From contig CAJQGY010000005.1 of NCBI GenBank assembly GCA_905478015.1, forward strand, positions 1-41,400: DNA of 41,400 bases, in the 5' to 3' direction. A program made the translations under genes and the position numbers. This document shows, one piece after another, positions 13,499-35,842 of the stretch. Below the pieces are notes generated by a model that did not search any database, was not told where the DNA came from, and saw only the letters and a list, made by a program, of their open reading frames with translations. Position 1 is the first letter of the stretch. Each line of letters starts with the position of its first letter. This DNA comes from an uncultured SAR86 cluster bacterium (GTDB taxonomy: Bacteria; Pseudomonadota; Gammaproteobacteria; Magnimaribacterales; D2472).

Positions 13499-14019
13499 TA
13501 AAAATTACTCGTATCTTTAAATAAGCCTACTTTAAGATTTTCAGCTGAATATACTTCTCTACCATCAACAAACATTTTACCATTTGCCAATCCTAATACA
13601 GCACCTCTATTAATAACTCTTTTTATATCTAGTTCATATCTTACTTTTTTTGCTGTAGGGAGCACCTGACCAAAAAACTTAATTTTTTCCGCACCAAGAG
13701 CTCTCCCAACTCCTGGCAATCCTGACCATAACAAAAAGAAGCCAAGCAATTGCCACATTGCATCTAAACCAAGACACCCTGGCATTACTGGGTCACCTTT
13801 AAAATGACAATCAAAGAACCATAAATCAGGTTTTATATCTAGTTCTGCAATAATTTTACCCTTACCAAATTGACCACCATCATTGTTAATTAAGGATATT
13901 AGATCAAACATGAGCATGTTGTCAGAAGGGAGTTTCCCATCCTCCTTACTAAATAAATTACCATTAGCACATTCAATAATGGATTCTTTTGAATAATAAT
14001 TTTCTGGACTAAAGGTCAT
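13498..14019 (-). CDS. fabA: 3-hydroxydecanoyl-ACP dehydratase/isomerase
   Basis: The 173-residue hot-dog-fold enzyme has catalytic His72 ([15 protein letters not shown]) and Asp86 (GLDAMWQ), matching the H70/D84 pair of E. coli FabA, and [13 protein letters not shown] along the acyl tunnel. It dehydrates 3-hydroxydecanoyl-ACP and isomerises trans-2 to cis-3-decenoyl-ACP, the branch point for unsaturated fatty acids. The length matches the family (about 172). Its ATG overlaps the ispB stop by 4 nt and its stop overlaps the fabB ATG, so the three genes look translationally coupled. Confidence 0.96.
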
Positions 14020-14957
14020 TTTTTTCTATTTAGCGAGTTATCTAACAAGTTTAACATCTCATCATTAACAATTTTATTTTTTATTGAGCATGCAGATACC
14101 TCAGCTTTTTTCATAAAGCTAATAGCTAAATTTTCAGTCTCTTCCAATCCACCTAATTTCAAAACTAACTCATAAAGTTTTATATTGTCTATGGAATCAT
14201 CACCTAAGAATTTTTTTAATTCTTTTTTTTCAGCAGAGCTTCCATTTAGATATGCAAAGTAAAAAGGATACGTTATTTTTTTTTCCTTAATATCCTGAAA
14301 GTTTGGTTTTCCAGAATAGCTATCTATTTGATAATCCAATAAGTCATCTTTAATTTGAAATAAAATGCCAAGATTTTTTGAAAAATTAGTAGAATGTTTA
14401 ATATAGCTTCTAGTTCCACCAGCTAATATAGCTCCAGATTTTGCCGCAGCCTCAAAAAGTCTTCCTGTTTTAAAGTAGCTAATTTTTAAAAGGTAAGGTA
14501 GATCTATATTTATATTATTTATTGAGTCTAATTGAATCAGTTCGCCTTTAGAAATATCATTTGTGGCATCTGAAAGCTCTTCAAGAATCTTCATATTATC
14601 AAGACCAACCATCATCATAAATGCTTTTGAGTATATGTAATCACCAATAAGCACACTATGTGAATTAGTCCATATACTATTCACAGATGCATTACCTCTT
14701 CTTACCGCCGATGAGTCAACAACATCATCATGAACCAATGTAGCAGTATGTAATAGCTCAATAACTGCAGCCAATTTTAATCTTTTTACGCCTTTTCTTC
14801 TATCAATAGAAGAGGTCAGTAAAGATAAGCGAGCCCTTATCTGTTTCCCACTTGATTTAAATATATAGTCATAAAGATTAGAAATAATCTCCTCTTCAAT
14901 GATCTCATTTTTAAGAACTTTTCTTACTAGTAGTAATTCTTTATTTAAATTATTAAT
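14016..14957 (-). CDS. ispB: Octaprenyl/polyprenyl diphosphate synthase, non-canonical start proposed
   Basis: This trans-prenyltransferase would make the side chain of ubiquinone. Both aspartate-rich motifs are present: [10 protein letters not shown] and [11 protein letters not shown]. The first TTG (14774) would cut off helices that carry the IPP-binding motif, yet the frame stays open upstream to a stop at 14973-14975 and encodes that missing region, including [10 protein letters not shown]. No ATG, GTG or TTG occurs in this stretch. I propose ATT at 14957, preceded by AGGG at 14966-14969 with an 8-nt spacer and a TATAAT at 14992-14997, giving about 313 residues (E. coli IspB 323). The identity is firm; the exact start is inference. 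It is divergent from rplU, as in E. coli. Confidence 0.82.
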
Positions 14958-14991
14958 CTTCCGAACCCTGTATTAAATTAATTAAAGCAAA

Positions 14992-14997
14992 ATTATA
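14992..14997 (-). promoter_or_regulatory. Candidate -10 element for ispB-fabA-fabB
   Basis: The minus strand reads TATAAT, a perfect -10, preceded by TG. The -35 region (around 15015-15020) is weak. A start site about 7 nt downstream (near 14985) would leave a leader of roughly 28 nt before the proposed ATT codon of ispB, with AGGG inside it. Confidence 0.45.
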
Positions 14998-15005
14998 CAT
15001 AAGTA

Positions 15006-15034
15006 TTGATAAATTCTTCATTAAAGCGTATATT
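15006..15034 (+). promoter_or_regulatory. Sigma-70-type promoter for rplU-rpmA-obgE
   Basis: TTGATA at 15006-15011 and TATATT at 15029-15034 are separated by exactly 17 bp, close to consensus. Transcription would start near 15041, leaving a leader of about 17 nt before the rplU ATG. It lies in the 100-bp spacer shared with the divergent ispB gene. Confidence 0.65.
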
Positions 15035-17627: not shown

Positions 17628-17975
17628 TGGTGGAGGCGGCGGGAATTGAACCCGCGTCCGCTAATCCTTCAGCCTAACTTCTACATGCATAGCTCACCCA
17701 ATTGGCTTTTTAACTTTAACGACCCGAGGAGCAGGGTGTAAAAGCGAGCTTGATTAATTTAACCAAACTGTGTCCAAGCAACACAGCTTGGCTGGACTAT
17801 GTGATTTGCCGATGCTTCAAACCATAGTCAATTCTGGCATCGGTTAGCATTAAGCTGCTAAAGCGTAGTTGTCGTTATTTGCAACTAAATTTTTTGTAGT
17901 ATGTTTTACAAGAATTACCACAATCTTGGCATGCGCTTTGGAGTCCAGTAGAAACGTCGAACCCTGTTCGCCCCC
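17628..17975 (-). ncRNA. ssrA: Transfer-messenger RNA (tmRNA)
   Basis: The 348-nt RNA frees stalled ribosomes and tags incomplete proteins. On the minus strand the 5' end GGGGGCG pairs over 7 bp with CGCCTCC before the encoded CCA (17630-17628). The third pair is G-U, the alanine identity element. The T-arm reads GGTTCAATTCCCGCC. The tag frame starts at GCA (17882) and ends in TAA (17850), encoding ANNDNYALAA; E. coli encodes ANDENYALAA. It lies just downstream of smpB on the same strand, as in E. coli. The ends are placed from the acceptor-stem pairing. Confidence 0.96.
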
Positions 17976-33418: not shown

Positions 33419-35842
33419 ATGAGTAAGTTTAAAAAAATCTTTCTGACTCTTCTTATAATCACCAATGTTAATGCCTTTGACGAGTTTTTAATTAGTGACA
33501 TAAGAATTATAGGGCTTCAGAGAGTTTCAACAGGTAGCATATTTAATGTGATACCTATTAGCGTTGGTGACAAAATTGATAACAGGAAATCTAGAGACAT
33601 AGTGAAGTCATTATTTTCTACAGAACAGTTTGATGATATTCAGATTGGCAAGGAAGGAAATACTTTGGTTATAACAGTTGCTGAAAGACCATCCATATCT
33701 GGAATTGATATAACTGGTAATAAGGCAATAAAAACAGAACAGTTGATGGATAGCTTGGATGGCGTTGATGTAAGAGAGGGTGAGGTATATAAGAGATCAA
33801 CTTTAGAAAAAGTTAAATCAGAGCTTGTTAGATCTTATGCTTCAAATGGACGCTATGGCGCAAATGTAGATATTCAAGAAAATATTAGGCCTCGAAATAC
33901 AGTTGAAATTTCTATTGAAGTCGATGAAGGCAAGAGCGCTACCATAAAAAAAATTGATATTATTGGTAACGAAGTTTTTGAATCAGAAGATCTTATAGAT
34001 AGTTTTGAACTATCAGAGGGCTCTTTATTTAGCTTTCTTTCAAACGATAACCAATACTCGAGAGAGAAATTGCAAGGGGATATTGAATCACTTGAATCAT
34101 TTTATTTAGATAGAGGGTATCTAAAATTTTCTATTGAGTCATCACAAATAAGTTTATCCAGAGACAAGAAATCAATATTTATAAGTTTTAATATATTCGA
34201 AGGCGATGAATATAAAATTTCTAGCGTTAATGTAATTGGAGACCTTCCATTTGATGAGAATGCATATTTACCAATCACCTCATCACAAGAAGGTCAAATA
34301 TACTCACAAGGACAAATAACTGCTATCGAAGAGTATTTTAAAAATATATTGGGTAATCAAGGTTATGCATTTGCTGAAGTAACTGGGGTGCCTGAAACTA
34401 ATGATGACGATAAAACAGTAGAGCTTACATATAATATTGTTCCTGGCAAACGAACTTATACTAGAAAAATACTATTCACTGGTAATGAGATAACTCAAGA
34501 TTATGTTTTAAGAAGAGAGATGAGGCAGTTTGAAGGTGCGTGGACGTCAGACGATAATATTGAGGCAGGAAGAATAAGACTGGAAAGACTTGGCTTCTTT
34601 AAAGAAGTATCTGTTGAAACCATTCCTGTACCAACAACAGATGATCAAATTGATGTAGTTTACTCAGTTGATGAAGAAAGCACAGGAAGTATTGGCGGAA
34701 ATGTTGGATATAGTGATTTTGGTCTTCAGCTTGGTTTTAATCTCCAAGAACAAAACTTTATGGGGACTGGAAATACCTTGAGCTTAGGAATCAATAAAAA
34801 TATCTACAGTGAAATGTATAATTTTTCTTTCATGGATCCTTATGCAACTGTTGATGGAGTGAGCGTAGGATACAATCTTTACTTTAGAGAAACGGATTAC
34901 GGGGAGTACAACGTAGCAAATTATTTAACTAATTCTGCTGGTTTAGGAGTTCAGTACAGCTACCCCATATCAGACACACAAAGACTTGGACTAAACTTAA
35001 CTTATGATCAAACAGATATTGATATTGGCACATTACCAGCAAGAGAAATTTATGATTTTGTAGCCTCAGAAGGGAATATATTTGATACTCTTAGTGCAAA
35101 CTTTGTGTGGTCAAGAGTTACTTTAAATAGAGGACTATTTCCCACTGATGGATCATCTACAAGTGTTAGCTTGATGGCAACTCTGCCATTTAGCGATTTA
35201 AATTATTATAGAGCGAGCATTCAACAAAAAGCATATCAACCATTAGGTTTTGCTAATCTTGTGGTTGGATTTAGTGGTGAATTAGGATATATGGATGCAT
35301 ATGGTGATACAAATGAGACACCTTTCTTTCAAAATTTTTATGCTGGAGGCCCCAGATCATTGCGAGGGTTTGAATCAAACACTCTTGGGCCAAGGAGCAC
35401 ACAAGCTCCTTGTTATGAATTTAATTACACAGAAGGATCTTGCCCAAATCTTATTGATACAGATGGAGATGAGATTTTAGATTTACCTTATTACAACCCA
35501 TACGCAAATAGTACATCTCGCTACTATGATGCCCCAATTGGAGGAAATGTTAAGGTTGAAGGAAGCCTTCAACTTATTTTTAGACTTCCATTTATTGAGG
35601 ATCAACGATCTATGCGATCTGCTTTCTTCTTTGATTTTGGTAATGTTTTTTCAGATAGCTGTAAAGATTATCAATATAACTGTTCTGAGCCTGATATTGA
35701 GGAGCTACGATATTCATATGGAGTAGGTGTTACGTGGATAACAAGCTTTGGTCCAATGAGTTTTGCAATTGCTAAACCTACAAATGCTGGGCCGCAAGAA
35801 AGAACAGAAGAATTTCAATTTACTGTAGGAAATGTTTTTTAA
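33419..35842 (+). CDS. bamA: Outer-membrane protein assembly factor BamA
   Basis: The 807-residue Omp85 protein has a signal peptide (residues 1-19), five POTRA domains (about 20-420; each with repeated GN.. and RxD.ES-type patterns) and a 16-strand barrel. The L6 loop motif reads LRGFESNTLGPR, where many homologs have VRGF. It ends in Phe (FTVGNVF), the usual outer-membrane C-terminal signature. It inserts beta-barrel proteins into the outer membrane with BamE (21066) and the chaperone Skp encoded next. Confidence 0.97.
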   Translation: MSKFKKIFLTLLIITNVNAFDEFLISDIRIIGLQRVSTGSIFNVIPISVGDKIDNRKSRDIVKSLFSTEQFDDIQIGKEGNTLVITVAERPSISGIDITGNKAIKTEQLMDSLDGVDVREGEVYKRSTLEKVKSELVRSYASNGRYGANVDIQENIRPRNTVEISIEVDEGKSATIKKIDIIGNEVFESEDLIDSFELSEGSLFSFLSNDNQYSREKLQGDIESLESFYLDRGYLKFSIESSQISLSRDKKSIFISFNIFEGDEYKISSVNVIGDLPFDENAYLPITSSQEGQIYSQGQITAIEEYFKNILGNQGYAFAEVTGVPETNDDDKTVELTYNIVPGKRTYTRKILFTGNEITQDYVLRREMRQFEGAWTSDDNIEAGRIRLERLGFFKEVSVETIPVPTTDDQIDVVYSVDEESTGSIGGNVGYSDFGLQLGFNLQEQNFMGTGNTLSLGINKNIYSEMYNFSFMDPYATVDGVSVGYNLYFRETDYGEYNVANYLTNSAGLGVQYSYPISDTQRLGLNLTYDQTDIDIGTLPAREIYDFVASEGNIFDTLSANFVWSRVTLNRGLFPTDGSSTSVSLMATLPFSDLNYYRASIQQKAYQPLGFANLVVGFSGELGYMDAYGDTNETPFFQNFYAGGPRSLRGFESNTLGPRSTQAPCYEFNYTEGSCPNLIDTDGDEILDLPYYNPYANSTSRYYDAPIGGNVKVEGSLQLIFRLPFIEDQRSMRSAFFFDFGNVFSDSCKDYQYNCSEPDIEELRYSYGVGVTWITSFGPMSFAIAKPTNAGPQERTEEFQFTVGNVF

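Follow-up and report, generated by a model that had tools for sequence, protein, structure and literature searches.

Where does translation of ispB begin in a SAR86 genome whose reading frame holds no canonical start codon near its 5′ end? The window, that is, the whole stretch of 41,400 nt that was analysed, belongs to a single MAG (G000) that is 84.5% complete, and the ispB open frame lies on its reverse strand (14016-14972). The frame is open from 14972. It passes through 66 codons without meeting a canonical start, against at most 26 in any other of the window's 50 non-overlapping ORFs of 80 aa or more. A first-pass annotation had proposed initiation at an ATT, and had offered a sequence error or a base change that destroyed an ATG as the other explanation. 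On re-reading, its positions for the stop, the 66-codon open stretch, the ATT at 14957, the AGGG 8 nt upstream and the TATAAT were all exact, and its statement that the first 66 codons contain no ATG, GTG or TTG was confirmed, the first being the TTG at 14774. The features of the region are collected in Table 1. The SAR86 genus of the source genome is denoted g1 and is represented by three genomes (G000, G001 and G002), each a species; a second SAR86 genus with the ATT state, g2, is represented by one genome (G003).

Table 1. Features of the ispB gene and its start region, in window coordinates.
Feature	Position	Strand	Basis or remark
ispB-type polyprenyl diphosphate synthase, read from ATT	14016..14957	-	313 codons and stop; PF00348
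Proposed start codon ATT	14955..14957	-	ATT shared by G000, G001, G002 and G003, 36 codons ahead of the GKxIR motif
Codon matching the ATG site of many relatives, here GTT	14964..14966	-	39 codons before the GKxIR motif
Shine-Dalgarno-like AGGG	14966..14969	-	exactly 8 nt between AGGG and ATT
In-frame stop TAA, upstream limit for any start	14973..14975	-	sequence
-10-like TATAAT	14992..14997	-	sequence; predicted transcription start near 14985, putative leader ~28 nt
48-nt block between divergent ispB and rplU	14987..15034	.	nearly invariant across five SAR86 genera (14 chosen sequences aligned)

Identity and genomic context of ispB

The IspB translation matches PF00348 with 213.9 bits against a cut-off of 27 and contains both Asp-rich motifs (HDDVVD and KDDLLD). 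Its top NCBIfam match, the best of 16 families, is octaprenyl diphosphate synthase (NF008140) with 200.9 bits, which does not reach the cut-off of 412 of this octaprenyl-specific model. The domain and the Asp-rich motifs place the protein among putative long-chain polyprenyl diphosphate synthases (IspB). Such an enzyme is required to make the side chain of quinones. The only other homologue found in G000 is a paralogue with 30% identity.

The gene is divergent to three genes that, from their translations, we take to be rplU, rpmA and obgE. TATAAT is present upstream of ispB in all 45 anchored genes of g1, g2, g3, g4, g5, g6, g7, g9 and g10 and in 11 of the 30 anchored genes of g8, where the 48-nt block is also less conserved. 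This block carries the TATAAT of ispB on the minus strand and a promoter-like TTGATA-17-TATATT directed towards rplU on the plus strand. A promoter consensus scan did not include the TATAAT at 14992-14997 among its reported sites. A search of the window against Rfam at gathering scores matched only tmRNA and no RNA element at the ispB start; the tmRNA gene lies at 17628-17975 on the minus strand, with the tag ANNDNYALAA. A scan of viral contigs with part of the promoter block gave no match, nor did a phage collection.

Conservation of the ATT codon in relatives

Of the 104 family genomes in which ispB gave any match, 94 provided a readable 5′ end; in the remaining 10 the match was to the paralogue or a partial sequence only. 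Outside the family, the 5′ end was read in 16 of the 96 genomes of the order, these 16 representing two of the order's three other families. Codons were anchored by the GKxIR motif, for which 110 loci were read and 35 left out (31 not anchorable and four outside the family). Within the family, 89 of the 94 genes have an ATG near the start, defined as the interval from 60 nt upstream to 30 nt downstream of the position expected; four are in the ATT state (three of g1 and one of g2) and one is frameshifted. In this last gene (G088, SCGC AAA168-P09; L033/L050), the ATG is out of frame by a one-base difference near an A run, which may be either an error or a slippage site. All 16 ispB genes read outside the family have ATG, and the ATT state is confined to two of the genera read.

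ATT occupies the same codon in all three g1 genomes and in the single g2 genome, with no ATG, GTG or TTG ahead of it, which lends support to the start proposed by the first-pass annotation. A sequencing or assembly error, or a strain mutation that destroyed the ATG in one genome, was that annotation's own alternative and would be conceivable for a single MAG. It is rejected because all three g1 genomes share the ATT: the two other species come from separate assemblies (JAQWXQ010000119.1 and CALJHI010000035.1), and show the same state within diverged flanks, which makes this reading highly improbable. Their IspB proteins are 88% and 77% identical to that of G000. Comparison with other genomes of the clade, which the annotation had named as a check, revealed no ATG at that codon within g1. 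The suggested base change survives in an evolutionary sense and not as a lesion of one genome, given that the ATG of relatives typically lies three codons upstream. Where measured, this ATG is typically 38-41 codons before the GKxIR motif, and in g9 it is usually three codons upstream of the ATT position.

The codon at the ATG site of relatives is GTT, GTA and GTT in the three g1 species and TAT in g2. Initiation at another non-canonical codon, such as this GTT or GTA, would retain the position of the ATG of relatives, with GTN in all three g1 species, and would resemble sigR, for which a GTC start is experimentally known (PMC5472188). A start of this kind is unlikely, as g2 has TAT at that codon and the g1 codon abuts or overlaps the SD-like sequence and therefore has no SD at a usable distance. 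The ATT at codon 36 before the motif is present in 4 of 71 anchored ATG-bearing family genes versus 4 of 4 here (Fisher p ~6e-5, a value that ignores shared ancestry, the ATT cases being only one or two independent events). In g2 the ATT follows the in-frame TAA after only four codons, and no other of the 12 codons next to this stop differs from ATG by a single base.

Phylogenetic trees were built from IspB, RplU, RpmA and ObgE of 22 genomes, and a second set added UvrA and DnaK. In these trees g1 sits beside g9, whose members use ATG, and g2 lies elsewhere; the grouping of g1 with g9 has a support of 69 with the four proteins and 52 when UvrA and DnaK are included. Forcing g1 and g2 together was not rejected (AU p 0.088 with four proteins and 0.244 with UvrA and DnaK). 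One or two origins of ATT are both allowed, because support for g1 with g9 is low and the grouping of g1 with g2 is not rejected; ATG may have been lost twice, or only once, in which case ATT persisted as the proteins drifted apart to 57% identity. The odds for AUU initiation are unaffected by the number of origins. Four g9 genomes (G100, G104, G092 and G103) have infC, uvrA, dnaK or an 807-aa gene (window 33419-35839) split or with stops, suggesting indel errors in the assemblies.

Probable translation of the N-terminal region

Codons 2-36 after the ATT have a dN/dS of 0.11 between G000 and G001, synonymous sites being saturated in the other two g1 pairs, which indicates that this stretch is under purifying selection; the comparison upstream of the ATT spans four codons only. 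The same codons align with the N-terminus of ATG-started relatives, and each of the three g1 species has the 313-codon frame intact.

A gene finder limited to ATG, GTG and TTG would call a protein of 252 aa from the TTG at 14774, and in G002 a TTG eight codons after the ATT could serve as a start. That the protein begins at one of these sites, with the N-terminal codons untranslated, is nonetheless very unlikely: codons 2-36 show the selection and alignment described above, a start at 14774 would drop the conserved GKQIRAR motif, and neither G000 nor G001 carries an equivalent of the G002 TTG ahead of the motif. The loss of a start codon would also suit a decaying pseudogene, a reading with almost no weight in view of the frame that is intact in three species, the low dN/dS, both Asp-rich motifs and the fact that the only other homologue found in the genome is the distant paralogue.

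A short upstream frame from an ATG at 15000 might instead drive ispB by frameshifting or by termination and reinitiation, and it closes with a TAA that shares bases with the ATT of G000 and G002, and with a second ATT in G001. This ATG lies at the conserved -10 block, which is found as well in genera with an ATG of their own in ispB, the frame runs past the ATT in g2, and no SD was seen before the ATG at 15000, which leaves this route about as improbable as a downstream start.

An orthologue test was applied to 588 ORFs of at least 80 aa from 620 kb of G000, of which 328 had an orthologue in samples of two related genomes. Seven of the 328 were flagged at a threshold of at least 12 codons, and in ispB alone did protein conservation reach back past the first canonical start by more than 23 codons. 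The same test on controls flagged 11 of 286 ORFs in G095 (four beyond 23 codons) and 4 of 262 in G003 (two beyond 23 codons, one of them ispB). A late first canonical start alone is no proof of a non-canonical start, because these controls also give flagged genes, five of them beyond 23 codons besides ispB.

Ribosome binding and messenger structure

An SD-like match of at least 4 nt, located 4-12 nt before the start, is present in 4 of 4 ATT genes versus 9 of 89 ATG genes (p ~2e-4, shared ancestry ignored). In the ATT genes it is AAGG or AGGG, with matches of 4-5 nt lying 8-10 nt upstream (8-9 nt in g1). The nine ATG genes with a match comprise five of g8 and four of g5, and none of the 16 g9 genes has one; the SD-like match is thus not specific to ATT genes. 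Predicted pairing with the anti-SD, for which a canonical sequence was used rather than that of the 16S of this genome, ranges from -3.3 to -4.5 kcal/mol in the ATT genes and averages -0.7 in the ATG genes, 3 of 89 of which reach -4. Such SDs are uncommon in G000 generally, where an SD of at least 4 nt is found at 125 of 548 first canonical starts with a slightly different motif list. The messenger around the ispB start is weakly structured, with 196 of 200 shuffles folding at least as well. One tRNA-Met gene was found in the scanned stretches, with a CAT anticodon and the three G-C pairs that characterise initiator tRNAs.

Stronger SDs are reported to accompany weak start codons as a known trend, mainly for GUG and UUG (PMC5622118). 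The ispB genes resemble this trend in that an SD-like match is present in those with the weak start and absent from 16 of 16 g9 genes, and differ from it in that their proposed start codon is AUU. Switches to AUU are described there as very rare, with 1 of 61,358 ancestral AUG starts and 1 of 5,080 GUG starts (PMC5622118).

Other genes without a canonical start

The genome survey of G000 covered 619,872 bases, or 58% of the genome, and 548 ORFs of at least 100 aa, of which 18 were flagged for a late start at 18 codons or more and 15 at 22 codons or more. By eye, most of the flagged ORFs resemble antisense frames or else have a believable ATG or TTG further down. One case is clear: a short-chain dehydrogenase (PF00106; G000:C4, L205:408-1193; sisters L263 and L264) lacks an ATG, GTG or TTG start in all three g1 species and has ATT or ATC 8-9 nt after AAGGAG. 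In G000, ATT follows the AAGGAG; in both sisters the AAGGAG runs straight into a TAA, the T being next to the final G, with two further codons between this TAA and ATC. The orthologue in g2 carries ATG. The dehydrogenase was unflagged in the orthologue test; its g2 and g9 orthologues (G003:C17 and G095:C3) lie outside the sampled stretches.

A crude scan of G000 for ATT, ATC or ATA preceded by an SD of at least 5 nt, upstream of the first canonical start, found no excess (11 of 455 versus 83 of 3,647 for all codons); the SD of ispB is shorter than this threshold, and of the 11 matches only the dehydrogenase was convincing by eye. In G000, infC has no ATG, GTG or TTG ahead of its IF3_N domain, as is expected for this gene. 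By eye, the apparent start codon of SAR86 infC is ATA or ATC (L091 ~1208-1250 and L092-L121). An Ala codon usually comes next, and in many cases an SD-like AAGG or GGAG precedes the start by 7-9 nt; this reading covered 14 of 31 loci and missed 17, and some of the 14 also have GTG, TTG or ATG nearby. In pcnB of g1, TTG is the first canonical start in all three genomes.

A candidate AUU-start gene

The preferred reading, to which we assign a probability of roughly 0.85, is that ispB of g1 is translated from the AUU at 14957, its ancestral AUG having been lost, with placement by the SD-like sequence and a predicted low, IF3-sensitive output. The AUG three codons upstream of the AUU would have been lost, and AAGG or AGGG 8-10 nt before the AUU would place the ribosome on a weakly structured messenger. 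Initiator tRNA-fMet would read the AUU with a third-position mismatch, as in infC. Output of ispB would then be low and would fall as IF3 rises, an expectation drawn from the species tested, in which IF3 selects against codons of this kind; by analogy, ispB is probably sensitive to IF3. On the matter of regulation, low IspB output may itself be the benefit. The data fit drift as well, the plainer alternative: the gene would have tolerated losing its ATG, with an Ile codon close by and an SD coming to its rescue and no regulation involved.

Escherichia coli infC, which encodes IF3, has an AUU start with IF3 autoregulation. Under the AUU reading ispB resembles it in having AUU in place of AUG, and infC of SAR86 itself has at several loci an apparent ATA or ATC with an AAGG-type SD; ispB differs in being metabolic, and therefore in having no feedback loop on IF3, and any IF3 sensitivity of its own is a prediction. 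E. coli pcnB is, like ispB, a gene outside translation, and its AUU start limits expression; in g1 the first canonical start of pcnB is TTG, and ispB serves the quinone side chain. The non-canonical starts of infC, pcnB and sigR are described as weak, and infC and sigR as repressed by IF3 (PMC5472188, PMC9410913). In Streptomyces, the GTC start of sigR is repressed by IF3, conserved in a clade and missed by annotation (PMC5472188). ispB is similar to sigR in the conservation of an apparent non-canonical start within a clade and differs in its codon and in that sigR encodes a sigma factor with a start shown by experiment, against a predicted one in ispB. infC and pcnB are named as the only two AUU-start genes of E. 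coli (PMC9410913). On the best reading, ispB joins this small class as a candidate, having no canonical start near, a conserved ATT and a suitably spaced SD.

Beyond infC, hardly any natural AUU starts are known, pcnB being the only one named in E. coli (PMC9410913). In the literature collection searched, no paper combined ispB, AUU and start codon, and the papers naming SAR86 together with start codon concerned, by title and abstract, other subjects. The unexpected aspects of the ispB case are that it involves a central metabolic gene, that it is conserved genus-wide, that a second genus has the same state and that a second gene in the same species lacks a canonical start. In practical terms, gene finders limited to ATG, GTG and TTG would cut 61 N-terminal codons, including a conserved motif. 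An AUU start preserved in a core metabolic gene of two genera, in each case with an SD-like sequence, would offer a natural example of how a gene outlives the loss of its AUG. More tentatively, and doubtful at present, g1 may keep AUU and AUC genes besides infC (ispB, the dehydrogenase and perhaps more) that are jointly set by the level of IF3 as a start-codon regulon, the switch in ispB being either old across the two genera or evolved twice. If such a regulon were true, quinone synthesis would be linked to translation capacity in a streamlined ocean bacterium.
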